This document shows, piece by piece, positions 47,491 to 63,931 of a stretch of 64,000 nt of DNA. This DNA comes from Prescottella defluvii. Its GTDB lineage: Bacteria; Actinomycetota; Actinomycetes; Mycobacteriales; Mycobacteriaceae. Both the position numbers and the translations under genes were made by a program. Location: assembly GCF_000738775.1 (NCBI RefSeq), contig NZ_JPOC01000057.1, positions 1-64,000 of the forward strand, written 5' to 3'. The first letter of the stretch is position 1. Every line of letters starts with the position of its first letter. A model generated the notes under the pieces. It had not been told where the DNA came from. It did not search any database and saw only the letters and a program-made list of their open reading frames with translations.

Positions 47491-50400
47491 TCAGGCCGCC
47501 ATCGTCGGGGCGATGGCCTCCATCTGCTCGATGACCAGTTTGATCGCGTCCGGCTGACGGTCCGGCGGATACCCGTGCCGGGTCAGCAGCCGCTTGATCT
47601 GTGACCGAAGGCGGGCCTTGACGTCCTCCCGGACTGTCCAGTCGGTCGACGCGTCCCGGCGCATCACCGAGACCAGTTCCCGGGCGATGTCGGCGAGCTT
47701 GCCCTCGCCCTGCCCCTCGACCGCCGACTCGTTCTGCGCGACAGCGTCATAGAACGCCAGTTCGTTCTCGTCGAGGGGCGGCGTGAAGTGACTGCCGCGA
47801 TTCGATTCGGCGGCCACCTCCTTCGCCATCTCCACCAGCGCGGCGATCACCTCGGCGGAGGTGAGCTGACTGTTGGTGTACTTCACCATCAACGTCTGGA
47901 GCTTCTCCGAGAAGGCCCGGAGCCGAACCACGTTGTGCTTGGCGGACTTGCGCGCCTCGTCGTTGATCAGCTTCCGCAACGCCTCGATCGCCAGATTGGG
48001 GTTCTTCGCGTCCTGCGCCTTGCGGATGAAGTCGACGTTGATGTCCGCCAGCGACGGCTTCGGGATCCCCGCCGCGTCGTAGATGTCGAGGACCTCACCG
48101 GATTCGACGGACGCCGCCATCAACTGACGCAGCGCCCGTTGGATGTCCTCGGGTACGGCCTGGCCCCGCGCGTAGCGTTCCTCCGCATCCCACTTGGCCA
48201 TGTAGATGCGCACTTCCTCGAAGAACTGCGCCTTCCAGACCTGCTCGCGGAGCGCCTCCTGACTGCCGCAGATCGCCCATGCCCGCGACAGTTGCGACGC
48301 GAACTTGCGATAGCGGGCCGCGAGGGTCTCCTCGCCCTCCCCCACCTGGTTCTCGGGATTGCGGGGATCGCGCAGATGGTTGACGGTCGCATTGGCGGCA
48401 TCGACATAGGCCCGCCGACCGGGTTTCTGCAGCCGCGCATTCCAGTCGAATCCGTGCAGGATCTTCTCGATGATCGTGATGAGATTCTTCACGGTGTCGA
48501 CGGCGGTGTCGATGTCGCGCCCCATCGGCTTCTGCTGCCGATCGGTCTCGGTGTATTCCGCCAGCGCGTGCGCGAGATTGTCGGCCAGCGGCGCGTAGGC
48601 GACGAGCAGTCCGTCCTGCTTGCCGCGGAACGTGCGATTGACCCGCGCCAGCGCCTGCATCAGCAACGCGCCCTTGAGCGGCCGGTCGAGGTACATCGTG
48701 TGCAGCGGCGGCGCATCGAAGCCGGTGAGCATCATGTCCTTGACGATGACCAGCTCGAGCTCGTCGTCGATGTCCTTGATGCGCTTCTTGATCGCGGCGT
48801 TCTCCGAGTCCCGGCGCACGTGATCGCTGATCGGCGCCGTGTCGCTCGCGTTGCCGGAGTAGACGACCTTGATGCGCCCGGTGGACAGCTCGTCGCTGTG
48901 CCAGTCCGGGCGCAGTGCGACGATCTCCCGGTACAGGTTGGCGCAGATCTCGCGGGTGGCGCCGACGATCATCGCCTTCCCGGTCGCCGTCGGATCGTCC
49001 TGGGAATCGACGAACGGGCGCATCGCGGCCCGGCGGATCTCCCAGTGCTCGACCAGATCCGCGGCCAGCTTCTTCAACCGGGCGGGGGCACCGTAGACGG
49101 CGTTGATGACCGCGACGCTCTTCTCGATCCGGTCACGTTCGGTGTCGTCGAGCCCGAACGTCGCCTCGTCGACGGAGGCGTCGAGATCGTCCTCCGAGAT
49201 GTCCTCGGCGAAAGCAACTTTGACGAGCCGGCTCTCGAAGTAGATCGGGACGGTGGCGCCGTCCTCGACCGCCCGCGTCAGGTCGTACGTGTCGATCGTC
49301 GGGCCGAACACGTCCTGGGTGTTGCGGTCCTCGAACGAGATCGGTGTGCCGGTGAACGCGATCAACGTCGCGTGCGGCAGCGCGTCCCGCAGGTGCCGGG
49401 CGTAGCCGTCGAGATTGTCGTAGTGGCTGCGGTGCGCCTCGTCCACGATGACGATGACGTTGCGGCGCGTGGTCAGCAGCGGATGACTGGCACCGGAATC
49501 CCGCTCCTCCTTGGTGCGACCGAACTTCTGCAACGTCGTGAAGTAGATGCCGCCGGTGGTGCGGCCGGACAGCTCCTGGCGCAGGTCCTCCCGCTTGCGG
49601 ACCTGCTGCGGCTGTTCCGGGAGCAGCCGCGACCGCAGGAACGTCTCGTAGAGCTGGCCGTCGAGTTCGGTGCGGTCGGTGATCACCACGACCGTCGGGT
49701 TGGCGAGCGCCGGATGCCGGATCACCTGGTTGGCGTACAGCTCCATCTCCATGGACTTGCCGGAGCCCTGCGTGTGCCACACGACGCCGGCCTTGCCGTT
49801 GTCGGCCACCGCCTGCACGGTCTTGCCGACAGCCTTGCTCACCGCGAAGTACTGGTGCGGCTTGGCAATCCGCTTCAGCAGGCCGCTCTCGTCCCGGTCG
49901 AAGGCGGTGAAGTTCCGGAGCAGCTGCAGGAAGCGTTCCTGGTTGAACAGTCCGTGCAGCGCGGTGTCGAGCGGCGTCGCGCCGTCGGTCAGGGACTCGG
50001 TCGTGACAGGAACGCCGTAGTCGTCGACGTTCCAGGGCGAGAAGTGGTTGAACGGCGTGAACGGCGTTCCGTATCGCGCGGTGATCCCGTCCGAGATCAC
50101 GTTGAAGACAGCGAATCTGAAGGCGAGCGGGAGTTCCTTCAGATACGTCCGCAACTGCGCGTGCGCCTGGACCAGGCCGGTGTTCTCGGATCCGGCCTTC
50201 TTGAGTTCGAGGACGCTGACGGGCATCCCGTTCAGGTACAGCACGATGTCGAACCGCCGGTGATGGTCGCCCTTCACCACCGTCACCTGGTTGACGGCGA
50301 GCCAGTCGTTGTCGTCCGGTTCCGCAGACAACAGCCGGATGGTGGGCGTGGTCTCCTCGCCCGACTCGTCGACGTAGGTGATCTTCCGGAGACCCTCGGT

Positions 50401-50688
50401 GAGGAACTGGTGGATCACCTCGTTCTCGGCGATGGCATCGGTCGAGCCGGCCGTCGCGACGGCGGCCACTGCCTCGTCCACGACGTGGTCGGGCAGGTAC
50501 GGATTGAACCGGGCGATCGACGCCCGCAGGCGCGGCACGATCAGGAGCTCGTCCCACGACGCCCGCTCGCCCGAACCCGGCGCGATCTCCGCTCCCGCGG
50601 TGGGCTTCCACCCGAGTTCGCCGAGCACGTCGAGGGCCATCTGCTCCCAATCGTTCTCTGTCAGCGCGCGGCTTTCGATCACTGCCAT
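47491..50688 (-). CDS. hsdR: Type I restriction enzyme R subunit
   Basis: The 1065-residue motor and nuclease subunit of a type I restriction system. The PD-(D/E)XK nuclease is RRFDIVLYLNGMPVSVLELK with D and ExK near residues 147-166. The SF2 helicase shows Walker A-like TQGSGKSMEME near 308, VDEAHRSHYD near 413 and AFTGTPI near 443. The C-terminal third is helical, ending in the region that binds M. ATG at 50688 follows GAGGGAGG. No hsdM or hsdS is adjacent: they lie 7 kb away at 57901-60797, same strand. A palindrome at 50766 sits about 78 bp upstream of its start. Confidence 0.95.
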   Translation of the reverse strand: MAVIESRALTENDWEQMALDVLGELGWKPTAGAEIAPGSGERASWDELLIVPRLRASIARFNPYLPDHVVDEAVAAVATAGSTDAIAENEVIHQFLTEGLRKITYVDESGEETTPTIRLLSAEPDDNDWLAVNQVTVVKGDHHRRFDIVLYLNGMPVSVLELKKAGSENTGLVQAHAQLRTYLKELPLAFRFAVFNVISDGITARYGTPFTPFNHFSPWNVDDYGVPVTTESLTDGATPLDTALHGLFNQERFLQLLRNFTAFDRDESGLLKRIAKPHQYFAVSKAVGKTVQAVADNGKAGVVWHTQGSGKSMEMELYANQVIRHPALANPTVVVITDRTELDGQLYETFLRSRLLPEQPQQVRKREDLRQELSGRTTGGIYFTTLQKFGRTKEERDSGASHPLLTTRRNVIVIVDEAHRSHYDNLDGYARHLRDALPHATLIAFTGTPISFEDRNTQDVFGPTIDTYDLTRAVEDGATVPIYFESRLVKVAFAEDISEDDLDASVDEATFGLDDTERDRIEKSVAVINAVYGAPARLKKLAADLVEHWEIRRAAMRPFVDSQDDPTATGKAMIVGATREICANLYREIVALRPDWHSDELSTGRIKVVYSGNASDTAPISDHVRRDSENAAIKKRIKDIDDELELVIVKDMMLTGFDAPPLHTMYLDRPLKGALLMQALARVNRTFRGKQDGLLVAYAPLADNLAHALAEYTETDRQQKPMGRDIDTAVDTVKNLITIIEKILHGFDWNARLQKPGRRAYVDAANATVNHLRDPRNPENQVGEGEETLAARYRKFASQLSRAWAICGSQEALREQVWKAQFFEEVRIYMAKWDAEERYARGQAVPEDIQRALRQLMAASVESGEVLDIYDAAGIPKPSLADINVDFIRKAQDAKNPNLAIEALRKLINDEARKSAKHNVVRLRAFSEKLQTLMVKYTNSQLTSAEVIAALVEMAKEVAAESNRGSHFTPPLDENELAFYDAVAQNESAVEGQGEGKLADIARELVSVMRRDASTDWTVREDVKARLRSQIKRLLTRHGYPPDRQPDAIKLVIEQMEAIAPTMAA

Positions 50689-50765
50689 GTCCTCCCTCAC
50701 AACAACACAACAGGGCAAACAGTACCGGGCACCCGGCGGCGTCCTCATTGGTCACTTCAACCTCA

Positions 50766-50785
50766 CTGATAACCCCGGTTATCAG
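50766..50785. promoter_or_regulatory. 20-bp palindrome between hsdR and DUF4352 gene (site 1)
   Basis: CTGATAACCCCGGTTATCAG: 9-bp arms around CC, perfectly symmetrical. It lies 78 bp upstream of hsdR and 137 bp upstream of the divergent DUF4352 gene. A near copy lies at 62978-62997 at the other end of the island. Likely bound by a dimeric regulator. Confidence 0.65.
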
Positions 50786-50922: not shown

Positions 50923-51594
50923 ATGACTGCTCCTCAGAATCCCCTTGGGCCGAACCAGTTCCCGGCCACTCCCCCGCCTGCCCAGCCGGCGAAGAAGTCG
51001 AAGAAGTGGCCGTGGATCGTCGGCGCCATCGCGGCCGTCGTCGTGATCGGCGCGATCGGCAGTGGCGGCGAGGACGATCCGAAGCCCGCCACCGGCCAGG
51101 CCGCGGGAGCAGCCGTCGTCGCCGGCGATGCGGCAGCACCCGCGGCACCGGCGGCCGCACCGGCCGCGCCGGCCGCGCCGGCCGTGAAGGACGCGCTGCC
51201 GGGACTGAACGCACCGGTCCGCGACGGCAAGTTCGAGTTCGTCGTCACCGGCGTCGAGTCGGGCCTGTCCACGGTCGGCGACAACCCGTTCCTCACCGAG
51301 AAGGCGCAGGGGCAGTTCGTGGTCGTGACGATGACCGTGCAGAACACCTCCGACAAGCCGAAGGGCCTGAGCCCGAGCGACCAGGAGATGTACGACTCCC
51401 AGGGGCGCAAGTTCACCGCCGACACGTCGGCGGGAATCGCCCTCGAATCGGACGTCTCGTTCTGGGACGAGATCAACCCCGGCAACAAGGTGACGATGAA
51501 GGTCGTCTTCGACATGCCCGCCGACGCTGTGCCGGCCGAGATGGAACTGCACGACTCGGTGTTCTCGGGTGGCTCGCGCGTCGCACTTCGTTAG
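50923..51594 (+). CDS. Membrane-anchored DUF4352 protein
   Basis: A 223-residue protein with a short cytoplasmic N terminus, one membrane segment (WPWIVGAIAAVVVIGAIG, residues 29-46), an A/P-repeat linker (residues about 66-90) and an outer immunoglobulin-like DUF4352 domain: FEFVVTGVESG, GQFVVVTMTVQNTSDKP and YDSQGRKF. DUF4352 proteins are surface lipoprotein-like, and roles are mostly unknown. GAAGGA precedes the ATG. Divergent from hsdR with site 1 between; a terminator follows. Confidence 0.85.
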   Translation: MTAPQNPLGPNQFPATPPPAQPAKKSKKWPWIVGAIAAVVVIGAIGSGGEDDPKPATGQAAGAAVVAGDAAAPAAPAAAPAAPAAPAVKDALPGLNAPVRDGKFEFVVTGVESGLSTVGDNPFLTEKAQGQFVVVTMTVQNTSDKPKGLSPSDQEMYDSQGRKFTADTSAGIALESDVSFWDEINPGNKVTMKVVFDMPADAVPAEMELHDSVFSGGSRVALR

Positions 51595-51604
51595 CGGCCC
51601 GACC

Positions 51605-51642
51605 GGGCGGGCGCGAGCGCTGGGGGGTGCCCGCGCCCGCCC
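51605..51642 (+). terminator. Hairpin after the DUF4352 gene
   Basis: Perfect 11-bp arms GGGCGGGCGCG and complement (51605-51615, 51632-51642), 10 bp past the stop; separates it from the EndoU-domain gene. Confidence 0.8.
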
Positions 51643-51679
51643 GATTCATTTCGTCAGCAGATCAAGGGGAGGAACACAC

Positions 51680-53461
51680 ATGTCCGGCTCGGCCGCCGAA
51701 CGCATCGCCACACTGGAGTACGCCGTGGGACCACGGCGCGGCATCGTCCACACGCACAATCCCGCGCACTGGGGGGCCAGCGGTGCGATCCGGCCCGACT
51801 GGATGTCCGCACCGCACGCCGCGGCGGTGGAATCCGCCGCGTCGGCGTTCCGCTACTCCGACGCCTGCGCACTCTGGCGGCATCTCGCGCAGCCGGTATC
51901 CGACCGCATCGAGATCACCCGCTGCAACGACGACGCGCTCGTCGCCTCACCCGACCCGGACGTGGTCTATCACGTCACGGGCATCCCCGGCATCTGGCAT
52001 CAGGGACGGGATCCCCGCCACTACACCGCCGTCCCGGCCCGCGAGGTGCTCGACGAACTGCTCGACCGGCTCGACGACCACAGCGGCCTGCTGGACGCCC
52101 GGCCGGCAAGCGCCCACGCCATCTGGGACCATCTCGCCGAGTCCCGCGAGCAGAACGGCCCTCCGGTGTCGGAGAGCATCGGGCCGTACACCGGCTGGAG
52201 GCTGATCCCCGGGACTCGGGTTCGCGTCGAACCTCTGGGCCGGAACAACTTTCGCGACGCCGATCGGGTGGCGGCCATCCGATCGGTGATCGCCAGCGCC
52301 GGCGGAACGGTCGCCGAGTGGTGCGATGCGCACGACGCGCTGCTCCGGCCGTCGGGGGTCGGCAGTGATCTCGATGCGGACGACCGGCGACTGGTACGCG
52401 AGCTGTTCCTCGATCTCGTTCTCTGGCAGGCCGGTCGGACGTCAGTGGCCGGCACGGGAGGGATGCGGCACGACAGTCTCGGTGTGCACCGGCCTGCCGA
52501 GGTGGACGTGATGCTTCTCGGTATCGGTGCCGACCCGGACGGGCGCAAGCTCTTCATCGGCGCGGGCAGGGACGGATTCGAGTTCGCGGCCTACGCTGCC
52601 GACGCCGTCCCGGGGGCGGCGCAGCCGGTGTACCGACTGCTGGTGTCGCACGCGCGCATCCGCACCCTGTGCGACGGATGGGGGGCGCCGTCGCATGCGC
52701 ATCCGCTGCCCGTCGTCAGCCTGTTCGCGGACGAGATCGGCGAGCTCGGGCCGCGGGAGTGGCTGCGGCGCAACGGCGTGGACGACTGGGCCGAGGAGCA
52801 TCCTGAACCGGTCGTGACGCCGTCGTCGCGGGAACTCGCGGAGCAGTTCGCCGCCACCCTGTACCGACCGCCCGCCGGCGGTCACGGTGCCGGGGTGGGA
52901 CTGCCGGGCAAGACCGAGTTTCCCGCCACCTGGTCGCGGGAGACGGTGATGGAGCGGATCGAGTCGACAACGGTCGAACCGTTGGCGCGAACGGTCATCG
53001 GCTGCACGGTGTTCGACGAACGCGAATTCGACGGCGTGTGGATCTGTGTGGTGTGGCGGCGCCGACCGGATTCCGAACCGCAGGTGGTCACCGCGTATCC
53101 GCTCAGCGGGGACGGCGTGGTGTTCAACGAACTGCCCGACGACTATCCGAGGAATCTGGTGCTTCCGGCGGCGACCGACCTGAGCAAGGCCGTGGACTCG
53201 GCACCGGACGAGTTGGTGCGCCTGGTCCGGAACGCCGTCTCCTGCGGCGAACCGTACGAGGCAATCCTCGCCGGCCTGCACATCGCCGACAGCCACCGCA
53301 TCGCACTACCCCTCAGCCTCATGAACACCATCGCGCAACTCATCTTCGACAGGTACTTCGACGACGCCGACTACGCGGAACTCACCGACGTCTTCACGAC
53401 CTTGGCGGAGCGTGACCACCCCGAATCGACCTGGGGGCCGGTGGGATGGCTGCCCGAGTGA
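51680..53461 (+). CDS. Large protein with bacterial EndoU-type nuclease domain
   Basis: A 593-residue protein without signal peptide or membrane segment. Residues about 399-490 match the bacterial EndoU RNase toxin domain: GGHGAGVGLPGKTEFPATWS holds the first catalytic histidine and the GKTEFP..W block, then FDGVWICVVW and QVVTAYP as the last strands. The catalytic histidine 2 and lysine cannot be placed surely. The N-terminal 390 residues (including VYHVTGIPGIWHQG and EVDVMLLGIGAD) and the 100-residue helical tail are unrecognised. In polymorphic toxins EndoU is normally the very C-terminal domain; the extra tail might be a covalently attached inhibitor. GGGGAGGA lies before ATG. Sits between DUF4352 and HNH genes. 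Confidence 0.75.
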   Translation: MSGSAAERIATLEYAVGPRRGIVHTHNPAHWGASGAIRPDWMSAPHAAAVESAASAFRYSDACALWRHLAQPVSDRIEITRCNDDALVASPDPDVVYHVTGIPGIWHQGRDPRHYTAVPAREVLDELLDRLDDHSGLLDARPASAHAIWDHLAESREQNGPPVSESIGPYTGWRLIPGTRVRVEPLGRNNFRDADRVAAIRSVIASAGGTVAEWCDAHDALLRPSGVGSDLDADDRRLVRELFLDLVLWQAGRTSVAGTGGMRHDSLGVHRPAEVDVMLLGIGADPDGRKLFIGAGRDGFEFAAYAADAVPGAAQPVYRLLVSHARIRTLCDGWGAPSHAHPLPVVSLFADEIGELGPREWLRRNGVDDWAEEHPEPVVTPSSRELAEQFAATLYRPPAGGHGAGVGLPGKTEFPATWSRETVMERIESTTVEPLARTVIGCTVFDEREFDGVWICVVWRRRPDSEPQVVTAYPLSGDGVVFNELPDDYPRNLVLPAATDLSKAVDSAPDELVRLVRNAVSCGEPYEAILAGLHIADSHRIALPLSLMNTIAQLIFDRYFDDADYAELTDVFTTLAERDHPESTWGPVGWLPE

Positions 53462-53497
53462 ACGTGCACCGACGGCGCCGCCGGCCGCCCACCGGCG

Positions 53498-55075
53498 TCA
53501 GAACGGTGCTGCAGCGCCCGTAGTGTCCGTCGAGTTGTGGTGGCCGGCCCGTCTCTGCTCGGATCCGCGGCGTCTGCGTTGCTGCAATGGGATGTGGCTT
53601 TCGAGGAGGAAGTCGAGGTCGAGTTCGGCGCGCGTGTAGTTCAGCCTTCGGAGAGTGTCCCTGTCGGTGAGTCGAGCGGCGAGTCGTGGATCGCCCCCGG
53701 CCCGCAGGCTCGACGGCGACATCGGATCGGAGAAGGGCCCCTCCGGACGTGTCTCGGTGGCCCGGCCCGTGGGGTCGACCCATTCGAGTCGGCCGGCCCC
53801 GACTTGGCGGACGGTCCAGTAGCCGAGTGTCTTGAGCCGGTGGTGGGTTCGACACAGGCACGCCAGGTTCGATTCAATGGTGAGTCCACCGCGGTCGGGG
53901 TTGTCGTGATCGAACGGGACGGTGTGGTCGAGGTCGCACGCGGTGGCGGGCACGCCGCAATTCGGGAAGCGGCACACACCGTCCCGGGTCCTGACGATCT
54001 CCGCCAACTGCGTGTTCGGCCGGTATCTTGTTGCCCGCAAGCGTTCTCGGGTTCGCGAGGCGACCGCTTGCGGGGAGTGCGCGGGTGACGGCAGAGCCGG
54101 GCCGATTCCGAGGACCGGCCCGGTGTCGCCGCTCCCGCTGAGCATCGCGCGGTCGGCTGCGGACAGCGTGAGGACCTGTTTCCACGTGGCATCAGCGGCA
54201 AGTTCGCGGGCGAGGTCGGCATCAATTGCGCCGTAGCCCGACAGGTAGCCGGGAGCGTCGTCGAATCCCAGCAGAGTCGCTGCGTCGACCCCGACGAGGA
54301 CCTGGATCTGGACTCCGGAGCCACGTTTCGCTGTTGTGTCGACGCGCGCTGTGCAATCCGTTCGTCCACACCGGCATTCGAGGTGGGTGTGACCGGAAGC
54401 GAGCGTGACGAGGGCGTCTGCACGACGCTGGGCCTGCGTCCGCGGATCGCGCCCGCAGGCGTCGAAGGTCATGGCACGGAGTCTGGTTGCGAGGATACGG
54501 CCGTCCTCGGCGGGGAGCAGTCCGTCGAGCTGCGACATTGCGTCCTCGCCGGCGATCACGCGCACGTCGCGGTCCTCGGTGGCACGCCGGCGTCGTTCCC
54601 GCGCGCCGTCGGGATCGAGTCGGGCGATCAGGCGTCGAGCGCGTTCCTTCAGCCGGGTGGTGCTCGACCGATCCGCGCCGTCGAGCAGGCAGCGCTCGAT
54701 CTCCTCGAGTTTGTCGTCGGACACGTTTGCCAGCGCCTCGGACAGTGCGTGGGCTTTCGCGAGATCGATCCGCCCGGCCTGGAACTGTGCACGAACCTGA
54801 TGCAGGCGCCACCGCAGATCACAGCCGAGTCCGATCATTCGCCGCGCCGCCGTCTCGGTGAGCCCCAGAATGCCGGCGACCTCGACGTGCGCGAATTCGC
54901 CGTGGTGCGCCTCGTTCCGGCCGAGCCGCGCGTCCTCCTCGCAGCGGGTGACGAACAGCGTCGTCACCGCGTCGATCTCACCGAACTGTTCCCTCGCGAT
55001 TCGGGCATGCCTCGCGACGAGGACGGCGGCCACGTCCGCGTCCGCCGTCTCCATCAACACCCCTGAATCGAACAT
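53498..55075 (-). CDS. DUF222/HNH endonuclease family protein (13E12-type)
   Basis: A 525-residue member of a family present in many copies in rhodococci and mycobacteria (REP13E12). N-terminal DUF222: HAEVAGILGLTETAARRMIGLG-like helices around residues 60-90, and DALVTLASGH. The C-terminal HNH is CRFPNCGVPATACDLDHTVP, then GGLTIESNLACLCRTHHRLK, near residues 368-420, with histidines and cysteines for a zinc-bound HNH site intact. Family genes behave as mobile or recombining units and host phage integration in M. tuberculosis. ATG at 55075 starts the family N terminus. Confidence 0.9.
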   Translation of the reverse strand: MFDSGVLMETADADVAAVLVARHARIAREQFGEIDAVTTLFVTRCEEDARLGRNEAHHGEFAHVEVAGILGLTETAARRMIGLGCDLRWRLHQVRAQFQAGRIDLAKAHALSEALANVSDDKLEEIERCLLDGADRSSTTRLKERARRLIARLDPDGARERRRRATEDRDVRVIAGEDAMSQLDGLLPAEDGRILATRLRAMTFDACGRDPRTQAQRRADALVTLASGHTHLECRCGRTDCTARVDTTAKRGSGVQIQVLVGVDAATLLGFDDAPGYLSGYGAIDADLARELAADATWKQVLTLSAADRAMLSGSGDTGPVLGIGPALPSPAHSPQAVASRTRERLRATRYRPNTQLAEIVRTRDGVCRFPNCGVPATACDLDHTVPFDHDNPDRGGLTIESNLACLCRTHHRLKTLGYWTVRQVGAGRLEWVDPTGRATETRPEGPFSDPMSPSSLRAGGDPRLAARLTDRDTLRRLNYTRAELDLDFLLESHIPLQQRRRRGSEQRRAGHHNSTDTTGAAAPF

Positions 55076-55151
55076 ATTTTCGACTCTAGTCCGCCTGGCC
55101 GACAATCTCAGGCGTTTGCCGAGATCCAGCCGGAACGAACGGTCTGCCGAA

Positions 55152-56048
55152 TCAGCGAACGCTGCGTCCGCGCGGCTTGCCTGTCGAGGTGGAGGACTTC
55201 TGCGGCACGCTGCGCTGGATCCTCGGCTTGGTCGCGGATGGTGCGGCGGTGGGCGGCTGACGTCGCCGCGATGCGAGGGCGTGGATCGCTTCCCGACCTT
55301 CCGCTCGAATCCTGGCCATTCCGGCAACCTCACTCTGTACGGCCTTCTCGAGCGGCGGCGCCCCGAGCGCAGCGAGAGCCCTTTTCGAAGAAGCGATCTC
55401 CCTCTCCAGGGGAAGACACGTTCCGCACCGCCAACGGTCCTCGTACCGCGACAGATTCTTGACCTCCAGGCACACTCCGCACCGTTTCGGCTGCGGCGCG
55501 GGCACCGCCTTCGGCACCGGCGCCGGGCGGGGGATCGGTTGTGCCTGCACCTTCGCCTTCGGAGCCGGCGGCGGGCTCGGGGTCGGCCTGGGTGTCGACT
55601 GCTGCGCCCGCACAGGTTCGGACGGCTGCACGGGCTTGGGCGGGCGAATGACGTCCAGTTCCGCTTCGAGTTTCGCCACCCGCTCGCGCTTGCTCTCGAT
55701 CAGGGCCGAAAGTTCGCTCACGAGGCCGCTCGGGGACTGTTCGAGGTAGCGGAGCTCCGCCTCGGCCTGCCGGTACTCCTCCTCGAGTTGAGCGACACGG
55801 CGTCGGTCGACGATGGCCGTCTCGCAGGCGGCCAACCTGCCTGCAGGCAAGTCGGATTCACCGAACACAGCCATTGCGAGTTCGGTGCGGGCGCGGTTCC
55901 AGGCCAGTACGCGCGGCTGGAGATTCACCTCCAGGGATTCCTCTTCCGCGACGAGTGCGAGCGCGAACTCGAGTTCGTCGGTCAATGCCCGAGCGGCAGA
56001 CCGGGCCCGATCCAGCAGTGCATTCAGATCGTCTACCGAACTGGTCAA
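55152..56048 (-). CDS. Coiled-coil zinc-ribbon protein, unknown
   Basis: A 298-residue protein that I cannot assign. Residues 1-135 are helical with heptads (VAQLEEEYRQAEAELRYLEQ); residues 136-190 are proline-rich (RPTPSPPPAPKAKVQAQPIP); then two CxxC pairs, CGVC and CGTC, form a zinc ribbon near 190-215; the C terminus is basic (KPRGRSVR). The layout coiled coil, P-rich linker, ribbon and basic tail suggests nucleic-acid or protein binding. It precedes the DUF222/HNH gene by 76 bp on the same strand. Confidence 0.7.
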   Translation of the reverse strand: MTSSVDDLNALLDRARSAARALTDELEFALALVAEEESLEVNLQPRVLAWNRARTELAMAVFGESDLPAGRLAACETAIVDRRRVAQLEEEYRQAEAELRYLEQSPSGLVSELSALIESKRERVAKLEAELDVIRPPKPVQPSEPVRAQQSTPRPTPSPPPAPKAKVQAQPIPRPAPVPKAVPAPQPKRCGVCLEVKNLSRYEDRWRCGTCLPLEREIASSKRALAALGAPPLEKAVQSEVAGMARIRAEGREAIHALASRRRQPPTAAPSATKPRIQRSVPQKSSTSTGKPRGRSVR

Positions 56049-56089
56049 TCCTCAATCCTTTGTTTCAGTTTCACGCACGCCGGAGCGTG

Positions 56090-56854
56090 TCAGGAACAGT
56101 CTCCGGGTTCCCCCTGCTTGACGACCGACAGCATCGCGTCACCCTCGGAGATCGGGGCACCGGCTGCGGGATTCTGTGCCACGACCACCCAGTTGCGGTC
56201 CGAGATCTGCATGCGCCCCTTGCCTGTCGCGTCCTCGCTCTGCGAGTAGTAAACGCCGGCCTCCTGGATCGTGTCCTGCGCCTTCTGCAGGTTCATGCAC
56301 ATCACGTTCGGCATCAACGCTTGCGCCGTACCGGTACCGGCCGATGCGGCCGAAGTCGGTTGCTGGGCAAGCGGTGCCTGCACGGCGGGTGCTGCGGGCG
56401 GTGCAGGTGCCGCAGGCGCCGGAACCGGTGTCGCGGACGTCTTGGTGGTGTCCTCCGTCGACGAGTCAGGGTCGAGTCCATCGCTGATGTCACCGATGAT
56501 CCCGATCAGGACGAACACAGCAGCGAATGCGGATGCGATGACGACACCCCGACGGACAGGCTTCTTCGCCGGCGCCTCCGGCGGCGGCGCGAAGGCCGCG
56601 GACGTATCGCCGGCGAGGAACGCCTCGTGCCCGGCCTGGGCGCGGGCGGCCAGGGCGTCCTTCTCGGCCTTGATCCGCGCGAAGTGATCGCGGATCGGTC
56701 TTCCGATGGCGAGGTACCACAGGCCCGCCGCCATGATCAGGAAGATCGCGACGGAGCCGAAGTCGAGTTGCACGAGGCTGACGATCGCCAGCCAGGTCGC
56801 GACGCCGGCGAAGAGTCCGGCAATGACACGAAGGTACGGGGTTACGGCGTTCAT
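56090..56854 (-). CDS. Membrane protein with PASTA-like C-terminal domain
   Basis: A 254-residue protein with two membrane segments near the N terminus (YLRVIAGLFAGVATWLAIV and FLIMAAGLWYLAI), a third one near residue 105 (GVVIASAFAAVFVLIGIIG), an A/P-rich linker, and an outer domain MPNVMCMNLQKAQDTIQEAG with VAQNPAAGAPISEGDAMLSV, matching a single PASTA repeat with two cysteines. PASTA domains bind muropeptides or act as sensors. The ATG pair at 56857/56854: AGGA lies 5 nt before the second, chosen here. It resembles DUF4352 protein in layout. Confidence 0.78.
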   Translation of the reverse strand: MNAVTPYLRVIAGLFAGVATWLAIVSLVQLDFGSVAIFLIMAAGLWYLAIGRPIRDHFARIKAEKDALAARAQAGHEAFLAGDTSAAFAPPPEAPAKKPVRRGVVIASAFAAVFVLIGIIGDISDGLDPDSSTEDTTKTSATPVPAPAAPAPPAAPAVQAPLAQQPTSAASAGTGTAQALMPNVMCMNLQKAQDTIQEAGVYYSQSEDATGKGRMQISDRNWVVVAQNPAAGAPISEGDAMLSVVKQGEPGDCS

Positions 56855-56946: not shown

Positions 56947-56948
56947 GA

Positions 56949-57401
56949 CTACAACTCAGTGGCCAGAACGAGTAGACGATCGAACAGTGCCGGCATCGTG
57001 CCATTGTCGAAGACGCCGACGAGCGCACCCTCGCAGAATCGATCAGCGAGAACCAGTCTCGTCATCAATCCCAGCACCTCGGCGACATCGAAGCCTGCCA
57101 CCACCGGGCCGACATCTCCGCGCTCCGGCAGTCGCTCGACAGCTGGTTTCGCGAGTCCGACGAACGCGGGTTCCAACAACCGGTGGGTGTGAAGCCACTG
57201 CACCGATTCGGTGACCAACGGATCCTCGACGGTGTAGCCGAACCCCAACACGCCAGCCCGGGTCGGCTCCGAACGCTTCACGTATCCGAATTCACCTTCG
57301 TGCAGTCGAATTCGTTCGACGAGCATCCGCAACTCAGCGACATCCTGCGGGTTCAGCGCCGCCAGGGCGTCTTCCGGTACGCGAGTAGCGCGATCCATCA
57401 T
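56949..57401 (-). CDS. Small DUF6508-like protein, paralog A
   Basis: A 150-residue soluble protein. It shares LVERI, a tryptophan-containing helix (VTESVQWLHTHRLLEP) and EVLGLMTRLVLADR..GVFDNGTMPALFDRLL with the next gene upstream, so the pair is a tandem duplication. DUF6508 is my best family guess and is not certain. It lies behind hsdS-paralog B on the same strand with a 41-bp gap, so it belongs to the restriction operon tail. Function unknown. Confidence 0.7.
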   Translation of the reverse strand: MMDRATRVPEDALAALNPQDVAELRMLVERIRLHEGEFGYVKRSEPTRAGVLGFGYTVEDPLVTESVQWLHTHRLLEPAFVGLAKPAVERLPERGDVGPVVAGFDVAEVLGLMTRLVLADRFCEGALVGVFDNGTMPALFDRLLVLATEL

Positions 57402-57442: not shown

Positions 57443-57904
57443 CTACTGCTCACCGACTGGTTGGAAGTCGAGCAATCGTTCCAGGAGCGGCGGCAGCATT
57501 CCAGACTCCAGTGCGTCGCGGGTCGCCCGCTCCGATGGGCGACCGACGCCAATAGTGTTGGCGATCATCCCGAGAACCTCGGTCGGACCGAGCCGCAGGG
57601 CAAGATTCCGCATGCCCATCAGGTTCAGTTGATCGACCACCCACTTCCCTTCGAGGCCATCGGGGCCGATCAACTGGTGGTCATGGAGGAAAGTCACGAT
57701 CTCGTCCACGATCGGATCGGGTGCGTCTTCACGGTTCCACTGGACCCGGAAGTTCGATCCATCAGCCGGCCAATGCGTTTCGATCCGCTCGACCAGCGAC
57801 CGCAGGTGCGCCCAGGCTTCCTGGTCGAGATCCGCGATCACCTGCGGGGCACCGAATTCGACGATCCCGGGCTGCCCCGCATCCAATCCAGTCCCGTCCC
57901 TCAC
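57443..57904 (-). CDS. Small DUF6508-like protein, paralog B
   Basis: A 153-residue soluble protein paralogous to its neighbour: LRSLVERIETHWP, PDPIVDEIVTFLHDHQLIGP, and PTEVLGMIANTIGVGRPSE..ALESGMLPPLLERLL. GTG start overlaps the hsdS stop by 4 bp (GTGA), so translation is coupled to the specificity subunit. That coupling suggests that its product works with the restriction complex, for example as an inhibitor or chaperone; this is inference. Confidence 0.72.
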   Translation of the reverse strand: MRDGTGLDAGQPGIVEFGAPQVIADLDQEAWAHLRSLVERIETHWPADGSNFRVQWNREDAPDPIVDEIVTFLHDHQLIGPDGLEGKWVVDQLNLMGMRNLALRLGPTEVLGMIANTIGVGRPSERATRDALESGMLPPLLERLLDFQPVGEQ

Positions 57905-59187
57905 AGCACCGCTTCGACCTGACGCTCCGCATCACGGACACGGAGTTCCCCGGACATCAGACGTGGGAGCAAGGCGTCGCGAGTGGCGGCGAGGGTGCGG
58001 GATTCCTTCCTGGACGACGCAAGCAGTGAGTCCAACGGCTCTAGCGTTCGGGCAAGTTCGCGCTGCCTCGAGATTGCGGGCAGATTCAACTTCAGCGATC
58101 GCATGTCGGCGAGGTTTATGTAGTCCGCCATGTCAGTATTCGACTTGAGGTACAGCGCCTGTCGCCGAAATTCGTCCGAGGCCAGCCATCGCCGCAAGTA
58201 CGTCCGCTCGATCTCGGCATTCTCACGTACACGGAAGAAGCAGATCTGCGGACTGTAGACCACCTCGTCGCCGCCTCCCTCGTACACTGCGATCCGGCCA
58301 ACCGTTCCCTTAGTCGTCAGGAGAATGTCGCCGGGCTCACCAGCTTTCGCCCCAATCGACGAGCGGCGGTCTGCCGACACGAAGTCGGACCCCTCAGCCG
58401 CTACCTCCCCCCCAACGATGTCCGCAACCCGAATGATTCGGAAGCCATTTTCCCTCAGCTCACTACTCTTAGTCCGGTAGCCATCACTGAAAAGAAGACC
58501 ACCCATCCCAGCCAATTCACCAATTGTCGTCTCAGAAAAGCCGACAGATCTGCCAGACCCCGCGGGCTCAGAGTTGGACTTCGTCAGTCGCGTGAAATGC
58601 GCATCTGCGAGAGAATCGATCGTCTCCGCGAGCTTGCGGTTCGCGGCGATCTTATCATCGAGGGCTCCGAGGACTTCGGCAATAGCGGATTGTTCGGCGA
58701 TCGGCGGCACGCTAACTGACATCTTGCCGACACGTGTAATGTATATGTGCTTGATGGTCGATCCGTCGGAATCGTTTTCCATCAACTTCTGGTAGTGCGG
58801 CGCCTGAAGCAGGTATGACAGAAAGTCAGAACTGATGCGTTCGTTCGGGCGCATGGTGGCAACGGACTGGTTGATGCAAACCATCTCACGATCACACACC
58901 GCAACTCGGCCTATGCTGCCGTCCTTAGTCAGAAGAACATCACCTACGCGCGGCCGACTCTTCTCCGTGAGCAGGTTGGAATAGGCGTCAATTGAGGTAT
59001 GTCGCGCAGTCGAATAGTCGATGGCGCCGTCGTGAATATCTTTCGCTGTCACCAAATACGGGCCTTCACCGGTCGTCGGCATCGGATTGGTGAAGCCGTA
59101 GGTGATTCTCTCGACAAAATTCGCCAGCGGTTCGATGGACCACCCCGCTCGGGAAGGCTCGGCGAGATGGCGCATCCCTAGGCTCAC
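57901..59187 (-). CDS. hsdS: Type I restriction specificity subunit
   Basis: The 428-residue DNA-recognition subunit. Two target-recognition domains are seen: residues 15-165 with GDVLLTKDGSIGRVAV and VPPIAEQSAIAEVLGALDDK, and residues 220-390 with GDILLTTKGTVGRIAVYEGG, ending LPAISRQRELARTLEPLD. The two conserved helices follow each domain. GTG overlaps the hsdM stop (GTGA). Base composition is visibly less GC-rich than its neighbours, as usual for exchanging specificity genes. Confidence 0.95.
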   Translation of the reverse strand: MSLGMRHLAEPSRAGWSIEPLANFVERITYGFTNPMPTTGEGPYLVTAKDIHDGAIDYSTARHTSIDAYSNLLTEKSRPRVGDVLLTKDGSIGRVAVCDREMVCINQSVATMRPNERISSDFLSYLLQAPHYQKLMENDSDGSTIKHIYITRVGKMSVSVPPIAEQSAIAEVLGALDDKIAANRKLAETIDSLADAHFTRLTKSNSEPAGSGRSVGFSETTIGELAGMGGLLFSDGYRTKSSELRENGFRIIRVADIVGGEVAAEGSDFVSADRRSSIGAKAGEPGDILLTTKGTVGRIAVYEGGGDEVVYSPQICFFRVRENAEIERTYLRRWLASDEFRRQALYLKSNTDMADYINLADMRSLKLNLPAISRQRELARTLEPLDSLLASSRKESRTLAATRDALLPRLMSGELRVRDAERQVEAVL

Positions 59188-60797
59188 AAAACCCTCCCCA
59201 ACTGCTCGCGCACGACTTCCTGCAACCGCGCCGATTTGTCGAACTGCTCGTACAGTTCCTTGGTCAGCCGCTCCAGCTTCTCCGCGATCGGCTCGCCATC
59301 GTCCTCAATCGGCGCAGCACCGACGTAGCGGCCGGGTGTGAGTGCGTAGTCGGCTTCCTTGATTTCGGCGAGGGTGGCCGAGTAGCAGAAGCCCGCCTCA
59401 TCCTCGTAGACAGAACCTGAAGCGGATTCCGTTCCGCGCCAAGCGTGGAACGTGCCGGCGATCTTGGCGATGTCGTCGTCGCTCAGTGCCCGCTCGGCGC
59501 GGTCGACCATGTAGCCCATGCTGCGGGCGTCGATGAACAGCACCTGACCTTGGCGGTCGATCTTGCCCTTGGGGCCGACAGCCTTGTCCTTCGCGAAGAA
59601 CCACACGCACACCGGGATACCGGTGCTACGGAACAATTGTGTCGGCAGCGCGATCATGCACGAGACCAGGTCCGCCTCCACCAACTGTGCCCGAATCTCG
59701 CCCTCGCCACCGGAATTCGACGACATCGAACCGTTGGCCATGACGACGCCGGCGCTGCCGCGCTCGGCGAGCTTCGAGATGATGTGCTGGATCCACGCGT
59801 AGTTCGCGTTGCCCGCCGGCGGAACACCGAACTTCCAGCGCTTATCGTCCTCCTTGCGGGTCCAGTCCTTGATGTTGAACGGCGGATTGGCAAGAATGAA
59901 GTCCGCCAACAGATCCGGATGCTTGTCGTGGGCGAAAGTGTCTTCCCAGCGGTCCCCGAGGTTGCCGGTGATGCCGTGGATCGCGAGGTTCATCTTCGCC
60001 ATCCGCCACGTGCGCTCGTTGAGTTCCTGGCCGTACACCGCCACCTCGGTGGGGTTGCCGCCGTGCCGCTCCACGAACTTCTCGGTCTGCACGAACATGC
60101 CACCCGAACCACAAGCCGGGTCGTACACGCGACCGCTGTACGGCTCGAGCATCTCGACCAGCACCCGCACCACACCGGCGGGCGTGTAGAACTCGCCACC
60201 GCGCTTGCCCTCCGCACGCGCGAACTTCTCGAGGAAGTACTCGTACACCTCGCCCAGCAGGTCCCGCGCCTTCGTGGCGCCGTGCCCGGTGAAGCGGGTG
60301 TCACCGAACAGGTCGATCAGCTCACCGAGCCGGCGCTGGTCGACACTCTCCCGGTTGAAGATCATCGGAAGCGTGCCTGCGAGAGTGGAATTGGCCTTCA
60401 TCAGCTCCTGCATCGCACCGTCGATGAGCTGACCGACCGTCCGACCCTCGACACCGACGGCCTCCTGGATGCCCTTGGCGTTCTGCGCGAGATGCAACCA
60501 ACGCGCCGACTCCGGCACCCAGAAGACACTGCTGCCGAGGTATTCGTCCTCGTCGTCGATGAGCGTCCCGATCTGCTCGTCGTTCATCCCCTCCGCGATC
60601 AGTTCCTCCCGGATCTGCTCACGGCGCTCGTCGAACGCGTCGGAGACGTACTTGAGGAACACCAGTCCGAGGATCACGTCCTTGTACTGCGAGGCATCCA
60701 TGGAGCCGCGCAGCTTGTCCGCGGCCTTCCACAGTGTGTCCTTGAGTTCCTTCATCGTCGACGGCGCGGAGACCGCGGCCTTCTTCCTCGGTGGCAT
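59184..60797 (-). CDS. hsdM: Type I restriction adenine methyltransferase
   Basis: A 537-residue N6-adenine methyltransferase subunit. The N-terminal helical bundle (LKDTLWKAADKLRGSMDASQ, then YKDVILGLVFLKY) is typical. SAM motif I is DPACGSGGMF near residue 224 and the catalytic motif is ANPPFNIKDW near 304, both intact. ATG at 60797 follows GAAAGG; its start is 2 bp after the stop of the upstream HTH/methylase-like gene, so the three form an operon with hsdS. Confidence 0.96.
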   Translation of the reverse strand: MPPRKKAAVSAPSTMKELKDTLWKAADKLRGSMDASQYKDVILGLVFLKYVSDAFDERREQIREELIAEGMNDEQIGTLIDDEDEYLGSSVFWVPESARWLHLAQNAKGIQEAVGVEGRTVGQLIDGAMQELMKANSTLAGTLPMIFNRESVDQRRLGELIDLFGDTRFTGHGATKARDLLGEVYEYFLEKFARAEGKRGGEFYTPAGVVRVLVEMLEPYSGRVYDPACGSGGMFVQTEKFVERHGGNPTEVAVYGQELNERTWRMAKMNLAIHGITGNLGDRWEDTFAHDKHPDLLADFILANPPFNIKDWTRKEDDKRWKFGVPPAGNANYAWIQHIISKLAERGSAGVVMANGSMSSNSGGEGEIRAQLVEADLVSCMIALPTQLFRSTGIPVCVWFFAKDKAVGPKGKIDRQGQVLFIDARSMGYMVDRAERALSDDDIAKIAGTFHAWRGTESASGSVYEDEAGFCYSATLAEIKEADYALTPGRYVGAAPIEDDGEPIAEKLERLTKELYEQFDKSARLQEVVREQLGRVL

Positions 60798-60799
60798 CG

Positions 60800-62872
60800 T
60801 CAGCCTTTCTCTGGGACGGTCGGTGGTGCCGGTGCGACGGTGAGCGCTCCGTGCGCCACGCCGTCCACCAGTGTGATGGTCAAGTCGTCGATGGTGTGCA
60901 GCAGTCGTCGAGCAGCTGCCCGACGCTCCCGGAGGTCGGCGAGGGCGGCGGTGACCACACCCACCTGGTCGGCCTGCACTCGCGGGATCTCCCACGTCTT
61001 CCACGCCGATCCGCTGCGGATCGCCCCCGGCGGTTTGGCCCCCACCCCGCGGCTCTGCAGATGCCGCGCAACAAGTTCCGGGATCAGCCCGGATGCGGCC
61101 GAATCCGCGATCCGGAGGATCCGCGCCGGCCACATCGCCACCGATGAGCCCTCGACATCGACGATCACCCCGAACGACGGGCTGGTGCAGAAGACGATGT
61201 CTCCCGGCTCGGTGTAGCGGCCACTGGGATAGTCGGTGACGAACGTCAGACGGTCGATGCCCCGTGACCCGATCTCGCAGCGACCGAGGACCTCGTCGGC
61301 ACCGATGACCGGCACCGCACCGTCTGCTTCGATGTCGACGGCGTCGATCCGGTTGCCCGACAGCACTCGGAGTTCCTTCGCGGCTGCAAGTTCGCCGGCC
61401 GTCTGGAACTGCTGGTCCTTCGCCGCTCGGTACTCCACCCACAGATCGAGTCCACCGCCGGCAACCTCAGCCGCGTCGATGGCGCCCACCAGCTCGAGCA
61501 CGCGGGCCGCGGCCTCACCGGCATCGACCCGAGGGCGGTGCACCTTCGGCTTCGCGGTGAGCACGCCGCCGGTCGCCAGCAGTTCCGCAATCTTGTGGAC
61601 GTGACTGAACCGAAACGCATGGGCGCGCACCGATTTCCACGTACCCATCGCGGCAGCCACGTCCGCGATCACGCCGTCGACGACGTCGTCCGCGAGCTCG
61701 ACTGCGCTGAGATCGGCCAGCACCGTGTGCCGTTCTGCGACCGAGATGGTGCCGTCCTGCGCACCCAACACCCACAACGCCATCGACGTCCCTGGGCGGG
61801 CCGGCAGCAGTCCCTCCGACAGCCGGATGACAGCCCGCAGGTGGCCCGAGCGCAGCAGGTCCGAGCGCACCGAATCGGCGTCGCGATCACGAAGCGGGTC
61901 GACTAACGTCGCCGCCGGACCGATGATCACCGCGCACTGACCCGGACCCATCTGCAACGAGATGTTCTCGATCTCCGCGAGGACGTCGACATCCGAATAG
62001 TCGATCGTGGACGCCGACGGGTACTGGGTGAGAAAGACCGCAGGACGGCCGACGCTGAAGTCGGCACCGAACCCACCCTCCGGCGGACTCTCGCGCCGCA
62101 ACCCGTGCGCCGCCAGCCGCCGCAGCGCCAGGCGCGCCGCCGGAACGGACGACGCTCCGGTCATGACCGTCGGCTCCGCGTACTCGGGCAATGCGGCCCG
62201 CACTGCGACCAGCAAGTCGGTGCTCGTCGGCGCCGGGTCCACGAACAGCGTGTCGTGGTCGTCCGCGAGAGCCACACTCACCCGTGCGCACAGCGACAAC
62301 GCGGCAGGGGTCAGCGCCGTGTCGGACAGTTCGGGGCGCTGCATCCGGAACCGGCGCGCCATCACGGACTCGAACGCATCCACCGCGGTGAACGCCGCGT
62401 CGGACATCCGATCGGTGTACCGCGCAAAGGTCCCGAGTTCCTCACCCAGTGCCGCGATCTCGTCGCAGAGGAACTCGTTGTCCGGATCGAGTTCCTCCAC
62501 CTCGTCGAGCAGGTCGTCCGGAGTCAGCTCACCGAGCGACTCCCCCAGCATCGTCTTGACCGCCAGCAGAGCCGTCACACCGTCGATCACGGCATGCGGG
62601 TGCAGCGAGGTCCCGTGGTCGAGCGCGGCGTGGATCGCGACGTCCTCGGCAAAGGAACTGTTGTTGCCGAGCCCTCGAGACCGCAGCCACTCGACAACCT
62701 CGTCTGCGTCGAACTTGTCCAGGATGCCGTCGACGACTGTCGGCCGAGGGAAGGGGCGATCCTCACCGCAGTAGCGCCGTGCCCACGCGGAGACGACCGC
62801 ACGCCGCACCTTCGCCAGCTTCGCGATGTCCGGCCGGGTGAGAAGCAGGGGTGACTGTTCGGACTGACGCAT
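60800..62872 (-). CDS. HTH plus inactive HsdM-like plus HsdS-like protein
   Basis: A 690-residue protein. Residues 8-62 form a helix-turn-helix (LLLTRPDIAKLAKVRRAVVS then FDADEVVEWLRSRG). Residues about 230-430 align in layout with an N6-methylase core: FVDPAPTSTDLLVAV stands where DPxCGSG is expected and FLTQYPSASTIDYSD stands where NPPY is expected, so catalytic motifs are lost, yet LLRSGHLRAVIRLSEGLLP with TSMALWVLG is well kept. Residues about 480-670 look like a target-recognition half (VTDYPSGRYTEPGDIVFCTS). It may be a regulatory or recognition subunit. GGGGGGAG lies before ATG at 62872. The C terminus nearly abuts hsdM. Streptomycetes hold similar HTH-methylase proteins. Confidence 0.75.
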   Translation of the reverse strand: MRQSEQSPLLLTRPDIAKLAKVRRAVVSAWARRYCGEDRPFPRPTVVDGILDKFDADEVVEWLRSRGLGNNSSFAEDVAIHAALDHGTSLHPHAVIDGVTALLAVKTMLGESLGELTPDDLLDEVEELDPDNEFLCDEIAALGEELGTFARYTDRMSDAAFTAVDAFESVMARRFRMQRPELSDTALTPAALSLCARVSVALADDHDTLFVDPAPTSTDLLVAVRAALPEYAEPTVMTGASSVPAARLALRRLAAHGLRRESPPEGGFGADFSVGRPAVFLTQYPSASTIDYSDVDVLAEIENISLQMGPGQCAVIIGPAATLVDPLRDRDADSVRSDLLRSGHLRAVIRLSEGLLPARPGTSMALWVLGAQDGTISVAERHTVLADLSAVELADDVVDGVIADVAAAMGTWKSVRAHAFRFSHVHKIAELLATGGVLTAKPKVHRPRVDAGEAAARVLELVGAIDAAEVAGGGLDLWVEYRAAKDQQFQTAGELAAAKELRVLSGNRIDAVDIEADGAVPVIGADEVLGRCEIGSRGIDRLTFVTDYPSGRYTEPGDIVFCTSPSFGVIVDVEGSSVAMWPARILRIADSAASGLIPELVARHLQSRGVGAKPPGAIRSGSAWKTWEIPRVQADQVGVVTAALADLRERRAAARRLLHTIDDLTITLVDGVAHGALTVAPAPPTVPEKG

Positions 62873-62977
62873 GCGTCGGACTCCCCCCACCTCGCCTCGA
62901 GCCGGCCCGATCGACGGCCGCCTGACGCAATCTATCCGATCCGACCGATCTTCCAGACAGTTGCCGCAATGAACTGG

Positions 62978-62997
62978 GCGATAACCCCGATTATCAA
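62978..62997. promoter_or_regulatory. Palindrome at the divergent promoter of HsdM-like and RNase H genes (site 2)
   Basis: GATAACCCCGATTATCA at 62980-62996 differs from site 1 by one base in this core. It lies 108 bp upstream of the HsdM-like gene and 69 bp upstream of the RNase H-type gene. Confidence 0.65.
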
Positions 62998-63064
62998 AGG
63001 TTGACCGCAATTTGTCGTACCGGCCGGGCATTCTGTTCGTGTTCCCGAACGTAAGGAGAAGCCC

Positions 63065-63931
63065 TTGCTTGCTGTGATTCACGCCCGCAAGAACCGCGGC
63101 CTCGACGGCGGCGTCGCCCGCGCAGTCGCCGTGTGGCAGTCGGACGCCGAAACCCACACGCGCCTGTTCATCCGCGAGGACGCGACCGAAGCGTCGTACT
63201 TCGCGGCCGCGCTCGACGCGTTCTCGTTCCTCCTCGACCTCTCGGCCGCCGGCGCGGAGCCCATCCTGCTCCACGTCACCGACAACACCCTCCGCAAGGA
63301 GATTGCCTACGTCCTCGACGCGTTCCCGTCGGTCACCATGGCCGGGGTGGCGCGCGGCGCCGTCGCAGACCTCTCGCGGACGGGCCTCGACGCCCTCGAT
63401 GCCGACGCCGGCGCACGGACCGCTGCCCACGAAGAACTCGAACGCCTGCGGATCGCGGCGTTGCCGGAGTTGACCGTCGCCACCGACGCCTCCAAGTCAC
63501 GCCGCCGGGGTGTCGGCGTGGCCTGCGTGAGCGAAGAAGGCGGCCGTCATCAGCGAATGGTTCCGAACGTCAAGACGGTGGTCACGGGCGAGCTGCTTGC
63601 AATCGAACTCGCGATCGACCGGTTCACCGACCGTCGCCTCCACATTCTCACCGACAGTCGGGCCGCACTGCAGTACCTCGGGGTCCTGCCGTCCGCTCGG
63701 TCACTGCCGCGTGACGGGGAGGCCATCGCGGTCGTCGACCGGATCCGGCACTCGCTGACCGGTCGATCCGTGCGGTTCTCCTGGGTGCGCGGGCACAACG
63801 GGCACCTGCTGAACGAGACCGCCGACCGACTCGCCGTCGCAGCCAGACGCGCCCACGAGGCACAGATCCCCACCGCGATCCGCCGGGCCGTCGCGGAGCG
63901 AATCGTCGAACCCGTCCTCGCTGCAGCCTGA
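63065..63931 (+). CDS. Double RNase H-like protein
   Basis: A 288-residue protein. The C-terminal half (residues about 137-260) is RNase HI: VATDASKSRRRGVGVACVSE, GELLAIELAIDRF, LHILTDSRAALQYL and VRGHNGHLLNETADRLAVAA, with the D-E-D-D set and histidine intact. The first 90 residues (AVIHARKNRGLDGGVARAVA, EASYFAAALDAFSFL, LLHVTDNTLRKEIAYVL) look like a second, partly degenerate copy. It should cut RNA in hybrids. TTG start has AAGGAG 6-7 nt upstream; no ATG fits. Divergent from the HsdM-like gene. Confidence 0.8.
   Translation: MLAVIHARKNRGLDGGVARAVAVWQSDAETHTRLFIREDATEASYFAAALDAFSFLLDLSAAGAEPILLHVTDNTLRKEIAYVLDAFPSVTMAGVARGAVADLSRTGLDALDADAGARTAAHEELERLRIAALPELTVATDASKSRRRGVGVACVSEEGGRHQRMVPNVKTVVTGELLAIELAIDRFTDRRLHILTDSRAALQYLGVLPSARSLPRDGEAIAVVDRIRHSLTGRSVRFSWVRGHNGHLLNETADRLAVAARRAHEAQIPTAIRRAVAERIVEPVLAAA

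Follow-up and report, generated by a model that had tools for sequence, protein, structure and literature searches.

The genes for a type I restriction-modification (RM) system lie in two separated arms within a 64,000-nt stretch of Prescottella defluvii DNA (hereafter the window), which is part of a 119.7-kb contig in a 5.13-Mb assembly. One arm begins with the gene for a 690-residue protein, M690 (60800..62872, minus strand), which structural comparison, motif alignment and gene linkage point to as a dedicated transcription regulator. We consider it likely that M690, a fusion of HsdM-like and HsdS-like parts that appears to have lost catalysis and to bear a helix-turn-helix (HTH) head, is an autogenous regulator of the type I system, binding the palindrome GATAA-N6-TTATC at both arms and activating them. 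That M690 is the binder, an activator and a dimer is what we infer; what the computation shows directly is the gene linkage, the fold, the degeneracy of the catalytic motif, and a conserved site, together with the spacing of that site and its occurrence at separated hsdR genes.

The product of hsdR (47491..50688, minus strand) is identified as the restriction and translocation subunit by matches to HSDR_N (7.5e-32), SWI2_SNF2 (4.7e-73) and TIGR00348 (480.9 bits), indicating a nuclease N-terminal domain and a superfamily 2 translocase. HsdM (59184..60797, minus strand) matches HsdM_N and N6_Mtase and is apparently an intact N6-adenine methyltransferase subunit; its NPPF motif is invariant in the 15 HsdM sequences aligned. 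The specificity subunit HsdS (57901..59187, minus strand) contains two Methylase_S stretches, one for each of two target recognition domains (TRDs). To judge from their sequences, the hsd genes form an apparently complete type I system that is split into two minus-strand arms, M690-hsdM-hsdS (running from 62872 to 57901) and hsdR (from 50688 to 47491), separated by ~7.2 kb. The initial annotation had described a split type I restriction island with hsdR at 47491-50688 and hsdM-hsdS at 57901-60797, and this description holds for all three subunits. The hsdR end is flanked by a putative pth gene, named as such in the initial annotation, and a putative L25-like gene.

The AlphaFold model of M690, compared with PDB entries using VIA-align, is predicted to have the fold of a type I M subunit. 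Its layout comprises an HTH-like head (residues ~1-68), an HsdM-like domain (69-447), and an HsdS-like TRD with a long C-terminal helix (~490-673). M690 and 7eew_A, an intact methyltransferase of Vibrio vulnificus YJ016 according to its PDB title, share 12% identity, with a root-mean-square deviation of 31 Å over the whole chain, in which the domain orientation differs; the aligned range excludes the HTH head. Residues 283-285, which we read as the motif IV position, are degenerate: among 109 aligned M690 sequences, some of them identical, Q is found in 93, Y, F or L in 95 and P in 100, a pattern that does not fit [NDS]PP[FYW], and SPPW is present anywhere in residues 230-340 in two sequences (L103 and L106). 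The predicted layout and the degenerate motif agree with the earlier description of an inactive HsdM-like protein with HTH and HsdS-like parts, the HTH being putative. A role of M690 as an active second methyltransferase was rejected because motif IV, as read here, is degenerate. PADLOC-DB 2.0.0 models returned 0 families for M690 up to an E value of 0.1.

Two kinds of related proteins were seen elsewhere. A 783-residue protein (L153:3580-5931) resembles M690 in its HTH-like head, and it also has an HsdS-like tail and a methyltransferase domain in which the NPPF motif is intact; its gene is divergent from a second HsdM-like gene, and it may be an active cousin of M690. Free-standing proteins of ~160 residues (L156:2604-3086, L157:1049-1531 and L158:2623-3111), whose second half resembles M690 residues 1-97 (32–34%), occur in three genomes of one genus with similar neighbouring genes.

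The distribution of M690 was followed in two samples. Within the bacterial family of the window, 201 genomes were searched, and 30 of them matched M690 strongly (E values of 1.6e-22 or lower). When named contigs were scanned with a single short pattern from the HTH head (residues 22-30) as the seed, 232 M690 relatives were obtained from Rhodococcus, Arthrobacter, Cryobacterium, Oerskovia, Cellulomonas, Isoptericola, Micromonospora, Streptomyces and others, the closest being those of Rhodococcus; the best-scoring 80 of the 232 were analyzed as named loci, so that distant relatives are under-sampled. Removal of identical M690 proteins reduced the 110 loci to 96 distinct ones (66 named and 30 family loci). 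A phylum-wide profile search of 296 genomes found M690 only in the window's own genome and HsdM relatives in 22; because the pattern scan found many relatives in other families, this search looks insensitive or its genome draw sparse.

M690 travels with hsdM. An hsdM gene lies within 500 nt downstream of M690 in 89 of the 96 distinct loci. Among the seven others, hsdM is further off in L052, L053 and L059, L138 and L144 stop at a contig end, M690 is truncated in L140, and no Hsd match was found at L130. In the family, each of the 30 genomes that match M690 strongly also carries a matching hsdM (E 1e-100 or better); five more family genomes have a matching hsdM and no strong M690 match. Pairwise identities of M690 correlate with those of HsdM (r 0.79, 75 loci) and HsdR (r 0.83, 47 loci), and the value for HsdS is r 0.20. 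The neighborhood comparison proposed with the initial annotation thus comes out in favor of M690, and on these comparative grounds M690 is an integral part of a conserved unit, M690-HsdM-HsdS(-HsdR), together with an operator-like palindrome. Two loci stand apart from the rest. In Mumia (L130:9980-12031), a full-length M690 and the palindrome are present with no hsd match nearby, which may represent an orphan regulator or a relic. The record of L129 is titled Sporosarcina, has a G+C content of 0.64 and holds an otherwise actinobacterial locus, and is possibly mislabeled or contaminated.

Exactly two copies of GATAA-N6-TTATC exist in the assembly. Site 1 (62980..62995) lies 107 nt before the start codon of M690, and site 2 (50768..50783) lies 79 nt before hsdR as annotated here; these are the near-identical palindromes that had been noted as framing the island. 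Upstream of M690, 93 of the 96 distinct loci have a site, which is exact in 78 and has one mismatch in 15 (median distance 92 nt); these are 66/66 named and 27/30 family loci. Of the three loci scored without it, L052 and L053 hold the palindrome with a 5-nt spacer, and L060 has an exact site after the estimated start, yet 17 nt before the called start codon. Elsewhere in the 80 named loci (1.6 Mb), sites with up to one mismatch have a background frequency of 0.0010 per 240 nt, and of 0.0037 in intergenic DNA. When the spacer was varied in the 80 loci, N6 was found 67 times, N5 once, and N2-N4 and N7-N11 never. By hand count, an exact copy occurs anywhere in 27 of the 30 family genomes with M690 versus 61 of the 171 without a strong match; the latter copies are taken as background because ten fixed bases turn up now and then.

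Opposite-strand genes between hsdS and hsdR imply that hsdR needs a promoter of its own. In loci with at least one such gene, hsdR has its own site in 16 of 19, versus 3 of 50 other loci; where the gap between hsdR and hsdS is shorter than 600 nt, none of 21 hsdR genes has one. No other observation argues as strongly as this tracking of the second site with separated hsdR genes for control of the restriction genes by the site, and for the split system being regulated as a single unit.

The site is also missing where M690 is missing. Five family loci with hsdM and no M690 (L145-L149), from a genus (g29) that looks Mycobacterium-like by gene order, have no site with up to one mismatch (0/5). Together with 19 genomes from outside the family, 24 genomes have hsdM with no M690 found; nine of these hold an exact site somewhere, none near hsdM, and the nearest, in G215, is 196 kb away. 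At L130, M690 keeps the site with no Hsd match nearby. The lack of the site at hsdM loci without M690 and its retention at L130 argue that M690 is the likely binder. We also observed a decayed C-terminal piece of M690 just upstream of hsdM in L145, and in L145 and L147-L149 hsdM lies in one common gene neighborhood with no HsdR match within the stretches examined.

The promoter geometry was analyzed in 91 loci from a set of 93 (80 named and 13 chosen family loci). A -10-like element, TANNNT, lies 30–34 nt beyond the palindrome in 77 of 91, and other 5-nt bins contain 0–6 loci; by single base, offsets of 32, 33 and 34 nt occur 35, 27 and 15 times, and seven loci have offsets of 43–45 nt. At hsdR sites the offset is 33–34 nt in 11 of 19 and 43 nt, one helical turn on, in 4 of 19. 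The window belongs to the one-turn-longer class at both arms, with a putative -10 TAGATT of the M690-hsdMS operon (62929..62934, minus strand) 45 nt beyond the palindrome and a putative -10 TACTGT of hsdR (50719..50724, minus strand) 43 nt beyond it. No -35 hexamer stands out in the promoters aligned on the -10. With the usual offset of 32–34 nt, the palindrome would be centered close to -53; in the window, its center would lie roughly one turn farther upstream. Repressor sites usually overlap the promoter, and strict helical phasing without a -35 element is typical of activators; the phase between the site and the -10, both read from sequence as is the start, is fixed in this manner. The fixed distance to a -10-like element and the lack of a conserved -35 suggest that M690, as an autogenous regulator, is probably an activator.

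Several points weigh against this reading. Association alone cannot name the binder of the palindrome, the loci are related to each other and their counts are not independent, and three of the 19 separated hsdR genes lack a site that three of the 50 others have, in a division that rests on a crude open reading frame caller. The -10 element is a predicted three-base pattern, from which the start sites are deduced. In the 19 genomes from outside the family, the absence of M690 comes from one possibly insensitive profile search, and some of their hsdM genes are near contig ends. A profile comparison of M690 with its own HsdM gave no match; their homology therefore rests on structure and on Pfam N6_Mtase matches in 5 of 29 M690 members (E up to 5, best 1.4e-06), the window's protein having no match. 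Among the same 29 members, no HTH model of Pfam was significant (HTH_Crp_2 at E 0.24 and HTH_17 at E 0.86, in one member each), and the head is presumed to be an HTH from its predicted helices and apparent resemblance. In favor of the regulator reading, the TRD stretch of M690 is much better conserved than HsdS (mean pairwise identity among the named loci 0.43 versus 0.28) and the HTH head better still (0.51), but the value for the head is inflated because these loci were found through a pattern within it; when residues 22-30 are left out, the head falls to 0.47, versus 0.44–0.46 for the TRD and 0.41 for the pseudo-HsdM domain.

The alternative that survives best, though we consider it doubtful, is that M690 binds the palindrome as a repressor, as RptR does. 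RptR, a 9-kDa helical dimer, has been proven to repress type I restriction islands in Gammaproteobacteria/enterobacteria; like M690 it is encoded by the first gene of its island and has a site conserved with its gene, and it regulates the island promoter, as M690 is proposed to do (PMC12255303). In Mollicutes, the C-protein HsdC binds hsd promoters at a site over the -10, so that HsdC and, as proposed here, M690 are both regulators of a type I hsd operon with a conserved promoter site (PMC5282649). In 41 of the 91 loci, none from Rhodococcus, a second TANNNT lies 33–34 nt on the other side of the palindrome and points oppositely, towards lineage-specific genes, and one bound dimer could act on two divergent promoters. 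The M690 site, however, is clear of the inferred -10, unlike the RptR and HsdC sites: RptR binds TAGCTA repeats overlapping the -10, whereas the M690 site is one 16-bp bipartite palindrome upstream of it. The near-invariant or one-turn-shifted spacing, with no -35 standing out, also speaks for an activator. The proteins themselves differ. With 690 residues, an M-S fold and a second site at hsdR, M690 is set apart from RptR by its size and the description of its site; HsdC belongs to a group of small C-proteins, whereas M690 is M-S-like, degenerate and located beside an intact HsdM, with another site in another position, as far as the two can be compared by description.

Less probable, and in our view unlikely, is that M690 works within or alongside the restriction complex, perhaps as a second M-S arm without catalytic activity, while an unlinked regulator binds the palindrome. 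M690 does retain an M- and S-like layout, and its divergence tracks that of HsdM and HsdR. Yet two exact sites in the whole assembly would be odd for a global regulator, and the hsdM loci at which M690 was not found, in the family and outside it, lack the site near hsdM, whereas L130 retains it with M690.

Still less probable is the composite defense system of the initial annotation, in which the RNase H-like, EndoU, DUF222/HNH, DUF4352 and PASTA proteins act together with HsdRMS. Five genes form a block enclosed between the two arms (50923..56854), and from neighborhood counts we judged all of them to lie outside the unit: a DUF4352 gene (50923-51594, plus strand), a gene with weak resemblance to EndoU (51680-53461, plus strand), a DUF222/HNH gene (53498-55075, minus strand), a coiled-coil/CxxC gene (55152-56048, minus strand) and a PASTA gene (56090-56854, minus strand). 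A two-domain RNase H-like gene (63065..63931, plus strand) is the divergent neighbor of M690 and is, in our judgment, resident or lineage-local; the annotated double RNase H-like protein indeed has two predicted RNase H folds, the N-terminal copy lying outside the PF00075 match. In the family, the accessory set recurs. A hand count of 31 loci (the window and 30 others, many cut by contig ends) gave the RNase H-like gene in 21, PASTA in 15, DUF4352 in 14, DUF6508-type genes in 9, DUF222 in 6, the coiled-coil gene in 5 and EndoU in 4; the order RNaseH-M690-hsdM-hsdS ... PASTA ... DUF4352-hsdR recurs, and M690 is present in 20 of the 27 genomes of the family that carry the RNase H gene. The set thins in the 80 named loci, where HsdM is present in 77 and the RNase H-like gene in 16, PASTA in 9, DUF222 in 7, DUF4352 in 6, DUF6508 in 5, the coiled-coil gene in 3 and EndoU in 1, all lower bounds since flanks extend up to 10 kb on each side. 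RNase H, DUF222 and PASTA genes also occur without restriction genes: L150, from the genus of the window, has L25-pth-DUF222-RNaseH followed by the same right flank, and in L151 RNase H lies beside PASTA. These two loci and the neighborhoods outside the family make a composite multi-effector system unlikely, and the conserved unit is best explained as regulation.

The RNase H gene was also considered as a partner of M690 and rejected: 7 of the 27 genomes have no strong M690 match, and in Rhodococcus loci the side of the palindrome facing the RNase H gene has no -10 at the fixed spacing. Which gene is divergent from M690 depends on the lineage: its family is RNase H-like in Rhodococcus, secreted or membrane-like in Arthrobacter, and a member of a family of 92–93 residues in Cellulosimicrobium/Oerskovia/Sanguibacter-type loci. 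Two tandem small paralogs that had been described as coupled to hsdS are placed by neighborhood counts as accessory, not as conserved members; paralog 1 (57443..57904, minus strand) does overlap the hsdS stop, and paralog 2 (56949..57401, minus strand) matches DUF6508, but genes of this type are found in a minority of relatives. Integration linked to a tRNA was tried as a reading, and no tRNA is located near the island; Rfam identifies two tRNAs in the window as a whole. The observation as a whole is partly confirmed, and its original interpretation is partly supported: the M690-hsd unit stands, and the accessory genes are judged to lie outside it.

A chance element of promoters or terminators, lacking any dedicated binder, can practically be discounted as an account of the palindrome. 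Promoter regions are often AT-richer than the genome, but a background of ~0.001–0.004 per 240-nt interval compares with 93 of 96 loci and an almost exclusive N6 spacer.

If M690 is an autogenous activator, as we favor, it would descend from an HsdM-HsdS-like fusion that lost catalysis and carried an N-terminal HTH. A dimer of M690 would bind GATAA-N6-TTATC before its own M690-hsdM-hsdS operon and, where hsdR sits behind opposite-strand genes, also before hsdR, placing both arms under one control. M690 would then accumulate alongside M and S ahead of the onset of hsdR expression, much like the C proteins of type II systems. More tentatively, two M690 chains might pair like a half-S enzyme, with two identical TRDs gripping the palindrome and the HTH head contacting RNA polymerase or neighboring DNA. 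This suggestion comes from the form of the palindrome, in which 6 bp separate two arms of 5 bp each, as in half-S type I sites. The half-S enzyme EcoR124INT reads GAA-N7-TTC by two identical TRDs, a site of the same symmetric bipartite shape (PMC2877798); EcoR124INT is an engineered active methyltransferase, whereas M690 would bind without methylating.

Type II systems offer further parallels. Their C proteins are dedicated autogenous regulators that can delay the nuclease (PMC12707154), but they are very small (PMC5282649), and M690, which is large, methyltransferase-like and part of a type I system, falls outside the C-protein class. Some C-proteins of Mollicutes are fused to methylases, listed for type II (PMC5282649). 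Type II methyltransferases with a regulatory N-terminal HTH are also known, such as M.SsoII (PMC3978073, PMC12707154). M.SsoII carries a DNA-binding head on a methyltransferase and acts on the operator of its own RM system, as M690 is proposed to do; it is a type II cytosine-5 methyltransferase, whereas M690 is catalytically degenerate and has a type I M-S layout with a separate HsdM adjoining. In the open-access literature searched, we found no account of an M-S-derived type I regulator or of a GATAA-N6-TTATC site, and no description of the conserved M690-HsdM-HsdS(-HsdR) unit with its palindrome, which is weak evidence of absence.

We regard M690 as a probable RM-linked regulator with an unusual origin, proposed to act on a type I system, a class for which the dedicated regulators RptR and HsdC, both small, are already known. 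Type I systems are known to be restrained after translation by proteolysis of HsdR (PMC12255303). In a large actinobacterial set, the 232 relatives, the system seems to come with its own regulator, assembled from parts of a methyltransferase and paired with a simple, nearly invariant site. On the more tentative half-S reading, M690 would have arisen as a transcription factor from the machinery of restriction specificity, and it might sense S-adenosylmethionine or the methylation state of DNA and thereby set when hsdR is made. The palindrome could serve to locate split hsdR genes by sequence, and the shared site may explain how hsdR remains under joint control even after moving kilobases away. 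The question of how a cell survives the entry of a type I system would become accessible to direct experiment on one protein, one 16-bp site and two promoters.

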